A DNA stretch of 35,972 nucleotides, taken from Alphaproteobacteria bacterium. GTDB taxonomy: Bacteria; Pseudomonadota; Alphaproteobacteria; Rhizobiales; Beijerinckiaceae. Location: positions 1 through 35,972 of the forward strand of contig JAJPHH010000207.1 of NCBI GenBank assembly GCA_021325385.1, given 5' to 3'. A model generated the notes under the pieces. It had not been told where the DNA came from, made no database searches, and saw nothing but the letters and a program-made list of their open reading frames with translations. A program made the translations under genes and the position numbers. This document shows positions 31,097 to 35,972 of the stretch, piece after piece (position 1 is the stretch's first letter; each line of letters starts with the position of its first letter).

Positions 31097-31253
31097 TATC
31101 GCGGCGAGGCGGCGACTCCGCCCTCCGCCGCCGCATGTCTGGACTGGGCCGCGCCGCAACGCGTTTCTCGCGCCTCCTGCGCACCAACGCAGTGCTCGGC
31201 GTCAATCCCAATGCGCTCCTCGGGTTCCACCCGCGCACTGCGGTATCGTCTTG

Positions 31254-31470
31254 CTATCAAGAAGTTTTGCTGACCGAACCGGCCGACCTGGCCGGTTTCG
31301 TCAGCAAAATTTCTTGATAGCCAATATGCCGCGCCGGCCGATCGCAGTCACCCGAAAGGGCCGAAGCGATAGCGGAGGACCCGCCATAGCGCCTCTCCAG
31401 CGCTTGTACTCTATGCGCGGCGTAAGGGACGCTATGGCGGGTTGACGGCGATCGGCCGGCGTGGCGCCGC
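31254..31470 (+). repeat. Structured dispersed repeat, copy 2
   Basis: The leading hairpin (31254-31320) has arms CTATCAAGAAGTTTTGCTG and CAGCAAAATTTCTTGATAG, with two G-T positions, an inner CGAA/TTTCG stem and a GGCC-GGCC tip. The block 31321-31470 contains GTCACCCGAAAGGGCC and ends GGCGGGTTGACGG plus GGCGTGGCGCCGC like the others. Its outer arms CGCCGGCCGATCGC and GCGATCGGCCGGCG are inverted copies, and CCCGCCATAGCG pairs with CGCTATGGCGGG. It lies between the DUF2252 gene and the converging hypothetical gene; the bases 31097-31253 before it hold no supportable gene. Confidence 0.85.
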
Positions 31471-32820: not shown

Positions 32821-34335
32821 ATGCGCCTTGAAGGAGCCAGTGGCGGCATGGACGAGCGCAGGGCGGCGTCGCAGACGCGGATCGATGGCCGCGCGGCTTT
32901 CGCCTCGGCCGCCTATCTCATCGGCGTCGGCCTGACTTTCCTGTTGGAGCGGATCGGCGCGCCGGACGGCTTGGTGCGGGCGCTCGCGCCGATCCTGGCG
33001 CTGGGCGCGATCGCGCTGATCGGCGCGCTGACCCGCACGACCCGCATCGCCGCCTTTTACGCCGCCGACCACGCCGCCGCGCCGCGCTATGGCGCGGCCG
33101 CCTTCGCTGCTGTCGCGGCCGGCCTCGCCGCCTGCGCTGCGGCGGGCGGCGACGCGCCGCCTTTGGCGGCGATGGGTTTCGGCTTCGTCCTCTCGGCGAC
33201 CATCGTCGGGCCGTTGGCGCGAAGCGCCGGCGCCTCCTCGCTGCGCGAGGCGGTCACGGCGCGTTTCCACAGCCGGCCGCTGCGGCTGATCCTGGCCTCG
33301 AGCTTTCTCGCCATCGGCGTGCTCATCGCCGCGGCCGGCTGCGAGGTCGCGGCTGACGCGATGGTCGACCTCCTCGGCATGTCGCGCGCCGGCGCGGTCG
33401 CCCTGATCGGCGTGATCCTCGCCTTGGTCGTCGCGCCGGGCGGGCTCGCCGGTTTCCTCTGGGTCGCGGCGGCCGCCGCCGGCATGATCGCGCTGGTTCT
33501 CGCCCTGCCGCTCCTGGCGCGCGCCGCTGCCGATTCGAGCGCCGGCGCGCCGATTCTCGGCGGCCTCGGCGAAATGGCGGCGAGCGTCGGACGCGCCGCG
33601 GCCGAGTGGCGAATCGCAGGCCCCGGCGGCGGCCTCGACAACCTCGCGATCGCGCTCGGCGCGGCCGTCCTGCCGCCGCTCTCGATCGGCGCCTTGGCCA
33701 GCGAAACGCCGCGGCGGGCGCGGCGCGCCGGGATCGCCGGCGCGATCCTGGCGGCTTTCTTCGCGCTCGCCTTCGCGCTCGGCGCGCCGCTCTGGCGCGC
33801 GGATGGCGGCGTCGCCGGGCAAAGCCTGCGCGCCAGCGCGCTCCTCGTCGCGGCGCTGATCTGCGCCGCCGCCGGCGCGCATACCGCTTCGCGAGCGGCG
33901 AGCGCGGAATCCTCCTATGGCTACGAGAACGTGCTGGCCAGCGCCCGCCTCGCCCGCTCGCGCGGGCTGGCGCTGCTGGCGATCGCGGTCGGCGCGATCC
34001 TGGCCCTGCATCGCGCCGTCCGGCCGGCCGAGGCGCTGGTCGACGCCGCCGCTTTGTCCCTCGCCGTTCTCGGACCGCTGCTGGCTTTGGCGGCCTCGGC
34101 GCGCAGCCGCGCCATTCACGCCTTGGCCAGCCTCGCGACGACGATCGCGACCATCGCTTTCTTGATTTGGGCGAACGGCTGGAGCTTTGCGCTCAGGCAA
34201 GCGCCGTCCGTGGCGCTGACCGGCGCCGCGGCGGGATTCGCCCTGGCCTGGGCGGCGAGCCTGTTCAGCGACGCGCCGCCGGAAGTCGAGGCGCCGGCCG
34301 CGCCGCTGTTTCTGGAGGAGCCGTTTGATTCTTGA
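32821..34335 (+). CDS. Divergent sodium:solute symporter-like membrane protein
   Basis: A 504-residue polytopic membrane protein with about 13 hydrophobic segments. The layout follows the sodium:solute symporter (SSS) family: a basic stretch with AAFYAADHAAAPRYGAAAFA after the first segments (compare the usual FYVAGR...G), REAVTARFHSRPLRLILASS in the middle, and LDNLAIALGAAVLPPLSIGA near residue 275 in place of the family's LGTAGLPH block. Alanine is exceptionally common. Several canonical polar sodium-site residues are not evident, so transport activity is uncertain. A second possible start is ATG 32848, after AAGGAG. It stands alone. Confidence 0.65.
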   Translation: MRLEGASGGMDERRAASQTRIDGRAAFASAAYLIGVGLTFLLERIGAPDGLVRALAPILALGAIALIGALTRTTRIAAFYAADHAAAPRYGAAAFAAVAAGLAACAAAGGDAPPLAAMGFGFVLSATIVGPLARSAGASSLREAVTARFHSRPLRLILASSFLAIGVLIAAAGCEVAADAMVDLLGMSRAGAVALIGVILALVVAPGGLAGFLWVAAAAAGMIALVLALPLLARAAADSSAGAPILGGLGEMAASVGRAAAEWRIAGPGGGLDNLAIALGAAVLPPLSIGALASETPRRARRAGIAGAILAAFFALAFALGAPLWRADGGVAGQSLRASALLVAALICAAAGAHTASRAASAESSYGYENVLASARLARSRGLALLAIAVGAILALHRAVRPAEALVDAAALSLAVLGPLLALAASARSRAIHALASLATTIATIAFLIWANGWSFALRQAPSVALTGAAAGFALAWAASLFSDAPPEVEAPAAPLFLEEPFDS

Positions 34336-34380
34336 GGGGGCTTTCCGGCGCGAGGCCCGAGATGCAAACGCCCGACGCTG

Positions 34381-34587
34381 GCGGCGCCACGCCGGCCGAT
34401 CGCCGTCAACCCGCCACAGCGCCGCAAACGCTGGTGCAAAGGTACGATGTCGGAGAGGCGCTATGGGTCCTCCGCTTCGCTCCGGCCCTTTCGGGTGACA
34501 GCGATCGTCCGGCGCGGCATTGTTGGCTACTGTGAATTTGGTGACGAAAGCGGCCATTTCGGCCGTCTTTCGTCACCAAATTCACAG
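34381..34587 (-). repeat. Structured dispersed repeat, copy 3 (inverted)
   Basis: This copy lies in the opposite orientation. The conserved outer end GCGGCGCCACGCCGGCCG is at 34381 and the hairpin at 34530-34587, with arms CTGTGAATTTGGTGAC and GTCACCAAATTCACAG that share almost nothing with the stems of copies 1 and 2, yet are a perfect 16-bp pair. The inner CGAAA/TTTCG stem and GGCC tip are kept. GGGTGACAGCGATCG and the GTTGACGG motif match the other copies. It lies between the SSS-like gene and hisN; no gene is supported from 34336 to 34859. Confidence 0.83.
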
Positions 34588-34808
34588 GAGCAAAAGAGCC
34601 ATCGCCGCGCGGAGGCGTGAAGGCTCGCCTCGCCATTGCTCAGGCGGCGAAAGTACGTCCTGAAAGTATGATGGCGAGGCGACCGCGAAGTGGCTTGGCC
34701 TTGACGCCGAGCACGGCGATGGCATGCAGGATAGAGCGTAACCATATACGTACAGGCGATTGCGACGACCCAGACCACGATCCGTTCACAGAGCGTCGCG
34801 CTATAGGG

Positions 34809-34847
34809 ATTGCTTTGCTTTGCTTCGCTTCGCTCGCCACGACGATC
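34809..34847 (-). repeat. Decayed copy of the CGTCATTGCGAGCG palindrome
   Basis: On the minus strand the bases read CGTCGTGGCGAGCGAAGCG followed by AAGCAAAGCAAAGCAATC, matching one arm of the palindrome at 3951-4040 with an expanded AAGCA unit. It lies just beyond the 3' end of the hisN-type gene. Confidence 0.5.
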
Positions 34848-34859
34848 CGACACTTTATG

Positions 34860-35663
34860 CTACACCGCCAGCAGCTCCAGCGCCTGCTCGTGCACGCGCC
34901 GGTCGCCGGCGGCGACGATGCGTCCGCCGCGCGACGGATCGCCGCCGTCCCAGGTCGTGACGATGCCGCCGGCGCCTTCGATGATCGGCACGAGCGCGAC
35001 GATGTCGTGCGGCTTCAGGCCCGCCTCGATGACGAGGTCGACGAAGCCGCCCGCGAGCGCGCAATAGCCGTAGCAATCGGCGCCGTAGCGGGCGAGGCGC
35101 GTCCGCTCTTCGACCCGGCGAAAGCCCGGCGCTTCGGTCTCGTCGAACATTTGCGGCGACGTCGTCATCAGCGTCGCCTCGCCCAGCGACGGGCATGGGC
35201 GGACGCGCAGCGAGCGGCTGGCGGCGCTCTCGTTGCGGGCCAAGCCGAGGCCGCGCCAGCCGGCGCTGACACCGTCGCCGAAATAGCGCTCGCGGGTGAA
35301 GGGCTGCGACATCATCCCGTAGACCGGCCGGCCGCGATGCGTCAGGCCGATCAAAGTGCCCCAGGTCGGCAGGCCGGAAATGAAAGCCTTGGTGCCGTCG
35401 ATCGGATCGAGCACCCAGACATAATCGGCCTCGGCCCGCTCGACGCCGTACTCTTCGCCGATGACGCCATGAGCCGGAAAAGTCTGCGCGATCAGCCGGC
35501 GCATCGCGACTTCGGCGGCGCGGTCGGCTTCGGTCACCGGGTCGAACGCGCCGCCGCGCGATTTGTCCTCGGCGCCGATTGCGCTGCGAAAGAACGGGAG
35601 AATCACTTCCGCCGAGATTTGCGCGAGCCGATCGACGAAGCCGGAAAAATCAATGGCGGTCAT
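34860..35663 (-). CDS. hisN: Histidinol-phosphatase HisN, inositol monophosphatase family
   Basis: A 267-residue enzyme of the FIG/inositol monophosphatase fold, which removes phosphate from histidinol phosphate in histidine synthesis in Alphaproteobacteria. The metal-binding motifs are clear: GVIGEEYG, the core WVLDPIDGTKAFISGLPTWG near residue 85, and the C-terminal aspartate in LKPHDIVALVPIIEGAGG. GGAFDPVTEADRAAEVAMRR is the typical N-terminal block. AGGAG precedes the ATG at 35663. The best call is HisN rather than an inositol enzyme because of the DPIDGTKAFISG and PVYGMMSQPF combination. No other histidine gene is adjacent. Confidence 0.88.
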   Translation of the reverse strand: MTAIDFSGFVDRLAQISAEVILPFFRSAIGAEDKSRGGAFDPVTEADRAAEVAMRRLIAQTFPAHGVIGEEYGVERAEADYVWVLDPIDGTKAFISGLPTWGTLIGLTHRGRPVYGMMSQPFTRERYFGDGVSAGWRGLGLARNESAASRSLRVRPCPSLGEATLMTTSPQMFDETEAPGFRRVEERTRLARYGADCYGYCALAGGFVDLVIEAGLKPHDIVALVPIIEGAGGIVTTWDGGDPSRGGRIVAAGDRRVHEQALELLAV

Positions 35664-35972
35664 GCGCCGCGCTCCTGCAGAATTTGCATATGTCGCATAC
35701 CGATTCGGCCAGGCGAGGCCGGAGCGACGGTTTGAAATAAATCATATAAATTCCTGTTCTGTCGGCAAATTCGTCGCAAGAGGGCCGCCGCCGATCGGCG
35801 CTCCTAGCGTGTTAGATCCGTGGCGAAAAAAGGTTTTTCCACCGGCTGGAAAAATAACGCTTGCATTTGGTGCGGCGCAGTTCGATATTGTTGCGGTGCG
35901 GCATGACCTGCCGCATATGCCCTCCTTGGGCGTTTCCTCCCTAGACTTGGGCCGCTTGTGGCGACACAGGCG
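35664..35972. other. Intergenic region at the right end
   Basis: No gene is supported here. The part from about 35860 to 35972 contains repeated TGCGG-type motifs (TTGTTGCGGTGCGGCA at 35887-35902) and CCTCC-rich stretches, which look like the upstream region of a gene beyond the window edge. An operator of a PHB-type regulator is imaginable but not shown. Confidence 0.4.

Follow-up and report, generated by a model that had tools for sequence, protein, structure and literature searches.

A dispersed three-hairpin repeat in Methylocapsa-like bacteria with covarying palindromic stems

The window analysed here is a stretch of 35,972 nucleotides, the whole of the DNA under study, from contig JAJPHH010000207.1 of an alphaproteobacterial draft genome (Beijerinckiaceae; assembly GCA_021325385.1, referred to as G000) that comprises 209 contigs and is 97.9% complete. 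Towards its right-hand end, two convergent genes are separated by an insert (34336-34859). The left neighbour (32821-34335) encodes 504 aa and has no Pfam family; the right neighbour is an inositol monophosphatase gene (34860-35663, PF00459). Within the stretch examined, the 504-aa gene adjoins the inositol monophosphatase gene in four of ten genus relatives (38-44% identity). In the relatives G002, G008 and G009 both genes abut and the repeat described below is absent from the site; therefore, the element was either acquired at this locus or lost from those relatives. The same two genes are separated in G010 by about 340 bases of unrelated sequence. Further to the right, a match to the suhB/mmgR sRNA family of Rfam (RF00519, 46.6 bits, cutoff 41) occupies positions 35912-35972 on the + strand and is clipped by the end of the window.

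The insert holds a non-coding repeat of about 340 bases with three hairpins, A-B-C, which is dispersed in Methylocapsa-like bacteria and has hairpin B at its middle. In the layout shared by the genome matches, hairpin B (58 bases) is flanked by two palindromic modules, A (about 130 bases) and C (about 125 bases). Modules A and C are alike, each with an outer stem of the form GCC...GGC, GTCA/TGAC-type pairing, an inner stem and a side hairpin. The features in the window are as follows.

34336-34859, no strand: insert between two convergent genes
34386-34518, + strand: module A of copy 3; outer stem GCCACGCC...GGCGCGGC, internal GTCA/TGAC pairing, inner stem and side hairpin
34530-34587, + strand: hairpin B of copy 3; variable outer arms, TTTGGTGA/TCACCAAA anchor and GGCC tip (z = -12.1)
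34598-34723, + strand: module C of copy 3; outer stem GCCATCGCC...GGCGATGGC, GTCA-type motif and side hairpin
31328-31465, - strand: module A of copy 2, from sequence and outer-stem pairing score
31254-31320, - strand (element on the - strand): hairpin B of copy 2, from fold and B-model match
31180-31249, - strand: module C of copy 2, degenerate; bounds by eye, outer stem score 10 against 7.2 shuffled
101-237, - strand: module A of copy 1, by eye
31-92, - strand: hairpin B of copy 1 (young subfamily), from fold and B-model match
285-303, - strand: terminal inverted repeat of the MITE carrying copy 1, with 1 mismatch

A first-pass annotation, made from the letters of the window, had described three hairpins, and all three were located again (copy 1 at 31-92, copy 2 at 31254-31320 and copy 3 at 34530-34587). 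Their outer stems start with ACCAAGACG (copy 1), CTATCAAGAAG (copy 2) and CTGTGAATTTGG (copy 3), as it had read them, and each is paired by its own partner arm. The replacements that it gave between copies 1 and 2, C-G by A-T and G-C by G-T, are correct as read on the + strand, and so are the block pairs ATGGCG/CGCCAT in copy 1 and ATAGCG/CGCTAT in copy 2. The corresponding pair in copy 3, which it had called G-U-compatible, is so only if read from the - strand, whereas on the + strand C stands opposite A; a short deletion is also present in one arm of this block in copy 3. The CGAAA neck and GGCC tip had been taken as constant; they are common, but not invariant once further copies are compared. 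Similarly, 34530-34587 does contain a hairpin, but only the middle one of a repeat unit that extends over about 34386-34723.

The RNA folds of the three B hairpins (copies 1 to 3) were far more stable than those of dinucleotide shuffles (z = -11.3, -11.5 and -12.1; 0 of 200 shuffles as good in each case), and copy 3 with its flanks folded as DNA gave z = -12.8, again with 0 of 200 shuffles as good. For the outer modules of copy 3, the RNA fold of 34383-34529 (module A) gave z = -2.6, with 2 of 200 shuffles as good, and that of 34592-34725 (module C) gave z = -8.3.

The element is present in multiple copies, occurs in several species of a single genus and in one genome from a second, and is absent from the present locus in three relatives. 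A search of the source genome with 201 bases around the hairpin returned 27 matches, a few of them duplicates of one place read from both strands. With a covariance model of B trained on 27 copies, G000 gave 108 two-strand matches, taken as 54 places, although some young copies at contig ends may be one physical copy counted twice. The same model gave 34 matches (17 places) in Methylocapsa sp. S129 (G010) and 6, 4, 2 and 2 matches in G006, G004, G002 and G008, respectively; at E <= 0.01, a match was found in 6 of 11 genomes of the genus. In a family sample of 149 genomes, searched by scoring the best 30 or fewer candidates per genome under stricter filters than in the genus search, at least 6 had a match at E <= 1e-4, namely five of the genus and G144, which belongs to another genus. 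The five places in G144 have the A-B-C layout with different outer stems, and one of the five is without most of C. At the DNA level, 10 of 80 relatives had matches, among them four genomes of other genera in which short pieces of the element, 29-57 bases long, were matched (L036, L038, L040 and L041, in G046, G018, G044 and G060, respectively).

Gene context was taken from a crude coding-frame call that resolved both neighbours at 39 of 79 places and left 40 unresolved; among the resolved places, 19 are between convergent, 13 between tandem and 7 between divergent genes. The plasmid and phage collections yielded no match to the element, and carriage by either was rejected. In viral contigs, the pattern of the young hairpin had no match and a looser hairpin pattern had two, which we read as chance. 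One contig filed as viral (L064, IMG/VR contig IMGVR_UViG_3300027965_000213) is the same site as the G000 place L121, with 99.9% identity over 1285 bases, and is probably host DNA. L064 and L121 are the sole same-site pair met. A tblastn comparison of the flanks of 54 own loci with those of 22 other loci (the G144 loci left out) found no orthologous hairpins in near relatives; it gave three matches of one flank each, L009-L054 (34% over 310 aa), L097-L127 (45%) and L106-L127 (36%), the latter two over about 104 aa.

The arrangement of the modules varies between copies. Module positions were assigned by script and are misplaced in a few loci (e.g. L013, L025 and L031). By eye, L018, L021 and L028 are without B or C, and L022 retains only a stub of B; hairpin B is inverted relative to A and C in L025, L031 and L123, also by eye. 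In some copies, seen by eye and uncounted, GGTAGC or GCTACC adjoins B, which may be compared with the GTAG tag at the foot of REP palindromes.

The young copies of G000 lie within a unit of about 515 bases bounded by inverted ends of 19 bases; these ends have 62 matches with at most 2 mismatches, against none for a reversed control. Among nine complete MITE units, the flanking 8-mers are alike at 7 or 8 positions in four, including a 296-base unit without B (L149), and five are without an 8-base duplication. The target is the palindrome GTCATTCCCGCnnnnGCGGGAATCCAG or a like sequence in seven of the nine and another GC-rich palindrome in two; in L099, L105 and L108, two like halves of the target palindrome flank the unit, as if recombined. 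G000 holds 96 + 98 matches to GTCATTCCCGCnnnnGCGGGAATCCAG with at most 2 mismatches (e.g. G000:C1:5734-5760). A 1302-base element in G183 has the same ends as the young MITE (1 mismatch) and encodes an IS4-family transposase (NF033592 (IS4), 214 bits against a cutoff of 115; DDE_Tnp_1 and DUF4372). The IS4-family element L200 (G183:C1:4401874-4403375), which has the inverted ends of the young MITE, also lies, by eye, within a GC-rich palindrome. G010 (L201) and G111 (L202) carry MITE-like units, about 240 bases long, that share these ends and in which no A-B-C cargo was seen. An ISAs1 origin of the ends was rejected, as there was no NF033564 and the ends proved to be of IS4 type via G183; in the draft of G000, no Y1, ISAs1 or IS4_1-model transposase was found. 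Among 15 older copies tested, 14 have no MITE end at p < 0.05, and L019 has the left end; the values for copy 3 are p = 0.095 (left) and p = 0.995 (right). Therefore, the A-B-C unit predates the young MITE or stands apart from it.

The first-pass annotation had suggested that structure rather than sequence is kept among the copies, or that the arms are copied from each other, and had proposed a covariation test on all genomic copies. The first of these readings is supported. RNAalifold on 27 copies gave 22 consensus pairs, 15 of which have changes on both sides. Standard pairs made up 92.2% of cells, compared with 77.6% in shuffles, and cells changed on both sides numbered 107, compared with 40.4 in shuffles (0 of 500 as high). 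When the partner was slid by 1-3 columns, the score fell from 0.435 to at most 0.119. Of five measures compared with shuffles, one, the count of further pair types, was unexceptional (62 of 500 shuffles as high).

A larger hairpin alignment comprised 76 distinct hairpins of 80 and then 58 distinct cores (L122 without the full anchor). For the tree-aware and branch sets, 53 of the 58 were used, L007, L009, L020, L120 and L134 being left out for arm insertions or misregister. The G006 copies L034 and L083 (weak, C251) and window copy 1 were left out of the alignment sets; L095 and L096, which have the same B-model score as window copy 1, were in the set. Seven elements were re-oriented to put A upstream, three automatically (L127, L131 and L134) and four by hand (L107, L121, L135 and L137). 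The tree-aware test is our own test of the R-scape type, not R-scape itself, and its null keeps the inferred substitutions of each branch and shuffles their positions (100 simulations). Across the 53 distinct copies, 6 of 18 stem pairs were significant at E < 0.05, compared with 0 of 612 other column pairs. The 12 non-significant stem pairs include six that are nearly invariant (12-15, 17 and 18), two that fall just short (7 and 11, with E of 0.06 and 0.17) and pairs 1-4 at the stem foot. Hairpin B thus covaries beyond phylogeny. The outer stems of module A and, less uniformly, of module C are likewise replaced wholesale with pairing kept; the module C stems GGCGATGGC, GGCTCAGGC, GGATCAGGC, CTCGATGGC and GGATGGCGC each have their own matching arm. 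Weak outer pairing, with a score no more than 2 from the shuffled mean, was seen in five listed A rows (L121, L124, L136, L137 and L138) and about 15 C rows, many of them from G010.

Several explanations of these paired changes have to be weighed. Apparent covariation can come from chance or shared ancestry when related sequences are counted many times, and the copies are indeed related, many of them near identical, with an unexceptional number of further pair types; however, the branch-wise null still separates stem pairs from other column pairs and slid structures lose their score, so this explanation is highly improbable. Pairing could also be kept by mutation alone, if one arm is copied onto the other during replication by template-switch (quasipalindrome) correction, which would sometimes invert the interior of the hairpin. 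Template switching has been published as a maker and keeper of stems and is described as able to fix the base pairing of existing stems (PMC8794818). Events of this hairpin-templating type are present in the repeat but few. The neck of L109 is the reverse complement of the consensus neck except for one loop base, and those of L107 and L103 also look inverted by eye; in L108 and L119 the right neck arm is changed and the left unchanged, and in L115 both are changed. On 45 branches shorter than 0.06, 9 two-sided pair-to-pair changes stand beside 9 one-sided breaks and 6 one-sided restorations, which also speaks for templating. Yet these short-branch doubles are no proof of a single step, because branches merge events, the tree uses B together with its flanks and modules may recombine. 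The first-pass annotation had offered copying of the arms from each other as an alternative, and as a usual one-step event this is not supported by the young copies: 30 of 32 were compared, two being left out for arm indels or a cut arm, and they show 11 one-sided arm changes and no two-sided ones. Two of these changes are each common to two copies, the one in L124 and L125 being at a deletion edge. Both L124 and L125 carry a common deletion of part of the right neck arm, which leaves a shortened hairpin. In the three longest branch bins, two-sided pair-to-pair changes and one-sided breaks numbered 19 vs 7, 18 vs 10 and 12 vs 7, respectively. Taken with the young-copy counts, this means that pairs were broken and then restored, that broken copies had no descendants, or that the arms sometimes change together. 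We consider template switching a rather unlikely source of the pairing as a whole.

Selection on an RNA fold would keep pairing as well, if the element were a structured RNA acting in transcript end protection, as a terminator-like signal or as an sRNA. The folds of B are very stable, nearly half of the resolved places (19 of 39) lie between convergent genes, and REPs are said to lie downstream of genes for the most part, many of them plausibly being transcribed (PMC3733652). If selection acted on single-strand RNA, one-sided changes should leave G-U more often than A-C, a test that is weaker where B is inverted relative to A and C. One-sided mismatches comprised 15 G-U, 21 A-C and 19 other over the 18 pairs of the 53 copies; 11 G-U, 13 A-C and 9 other over pairs 4-18, summed over the branch bins; and 3 G-U, 3 A-C and 5 other in the young subfamily. 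As G-U does not exceed A-C, the signal is strand-symmetric, as expected for DNA, and this counts against an RNA read from one strand. The inversion of B in some copies (L025, L031 and L123, by eye) also argues against RNA, as does the lack of a terminator-like site at copy 3 and of an Rfam family at the gathering score. No intrinsic terminator (GC-rich stem followed by a T run) was found in 34300-34900; in Rfam the element had no match at the gathering threshold, and four matches to miRNA models were far below it (best 25.3 bits, threshold 114). A terminator identity and an RNA family identity were both rejected on these grounds. Some elements could act as RNA, but an RNA fold is an improbable explanation for the pairing of the repeat.

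BIMEs and Rhizobium intergenic mosaic elements (RIMEs) are mosaics of palindromic modules between genes. The A-B-C repeat resembles them in having several palindromic modules in variable combinations between genes, with modules missing in L018, L021, L022 and L028. The likeness to RIMEs is one of layout, and the A-B-C order was seen only in a single genus and in one genome from outside it. REPINs and REP sequences are, in the same way, palindromic repeats scattered between genes, with a hairpin whose ends are conserved while another part varies. Most REP repeats are reported from spacers between unidirectional and convergent genes (PMC3733652). Compensatory changes are reported as common in REPIN hairpins (PMC3116915) and are also present in the A-B-C repeat; covariation in a mobile palindrome is therefore not new in kind. 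The A-B-C repeat differs from a REP doublet in its three hairpins of about 130, 58 and 125 bases. It differs from the RAYT-moved REPINs of Pseudomonas and E. coli in that its outer stems are replaced wholesale between lineages and in that no Y1 RAYT-type transposase was found in G000. PF01797 (Y1_Tnp) had no match in the G000 draft, whereas 5 of 14 control genomes were positive, and mobilisation by RAYT was rejected. With IS4-family MITEs, the young subfamily shares terminal inverted repeats (19 bases), a duplication of 8 bases in 4 of 9 complete units and a transposase-bearing relative in G183, whereas copy 3 and 13 other older copies of the 15 tested are without such an end at p < 0.05. The literature searched, largely without subscription papers, held no recognised description of the A-B-C repeat. 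As far as our searches show, three things are new: the layout with three hairpins, outer stems that are replaced wholesale across two genera, and a decay that is symmetric between the strands.

On balance, it is fairly probable that the element is a non-autonomous, mosaic palindromic repeat of MITE-like or BIME-like character, whose folded DNA is what spreading lineages keep. The spreading unit would have to fold as DNA, either as an extruded cruciform or as single-stranded DNA in replication or transposition. Only lineages with complementary arms would then keep being copied, and inserted copies would gather one-sided mutations. The youngest wave in G000 was carried inside the MITE of about 515 bases with IS4-type ends. 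Against this explanation, template-switch repair without selection can also yield pairing over long branches, no matching transposase was found in the G000 draft, 14 of 15 older copies tested have no MITE end at p < 0.05, the duplication is absent in five of nine units and outer-stem pairing is near the shuffled level in some rows of A and C. A bolder interpretation is possible and is put forward tentatively, namely that the three hairpins form a mobile DNA element that owes its heritable identity to its fold on either strand, every outer stem being exchangeable for an unrelated sequence if the partner arm follows. Such a fold may be kept by hairpin-templated repair, by recognition of DNA shape together with a few fixed letters (GTCA/TGAC and TTTGsTGA/TCAsCAAA), or by both.

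In palindromic repeats, covariation of this kind can readily be misread as the mark of a functional RNA. Other such repeats can be put to the two tests used here, one of strand symmetry (G-U or A-C among one-sided mismatches) and one on young copies, which asks whether changes are one-sided or two-sided. The approximately 80 natural copies of the A-B-C repeat provide material for asking how long DNA hairpins stay paired as their letters change, whether by selection for shape or by templating of the arms.
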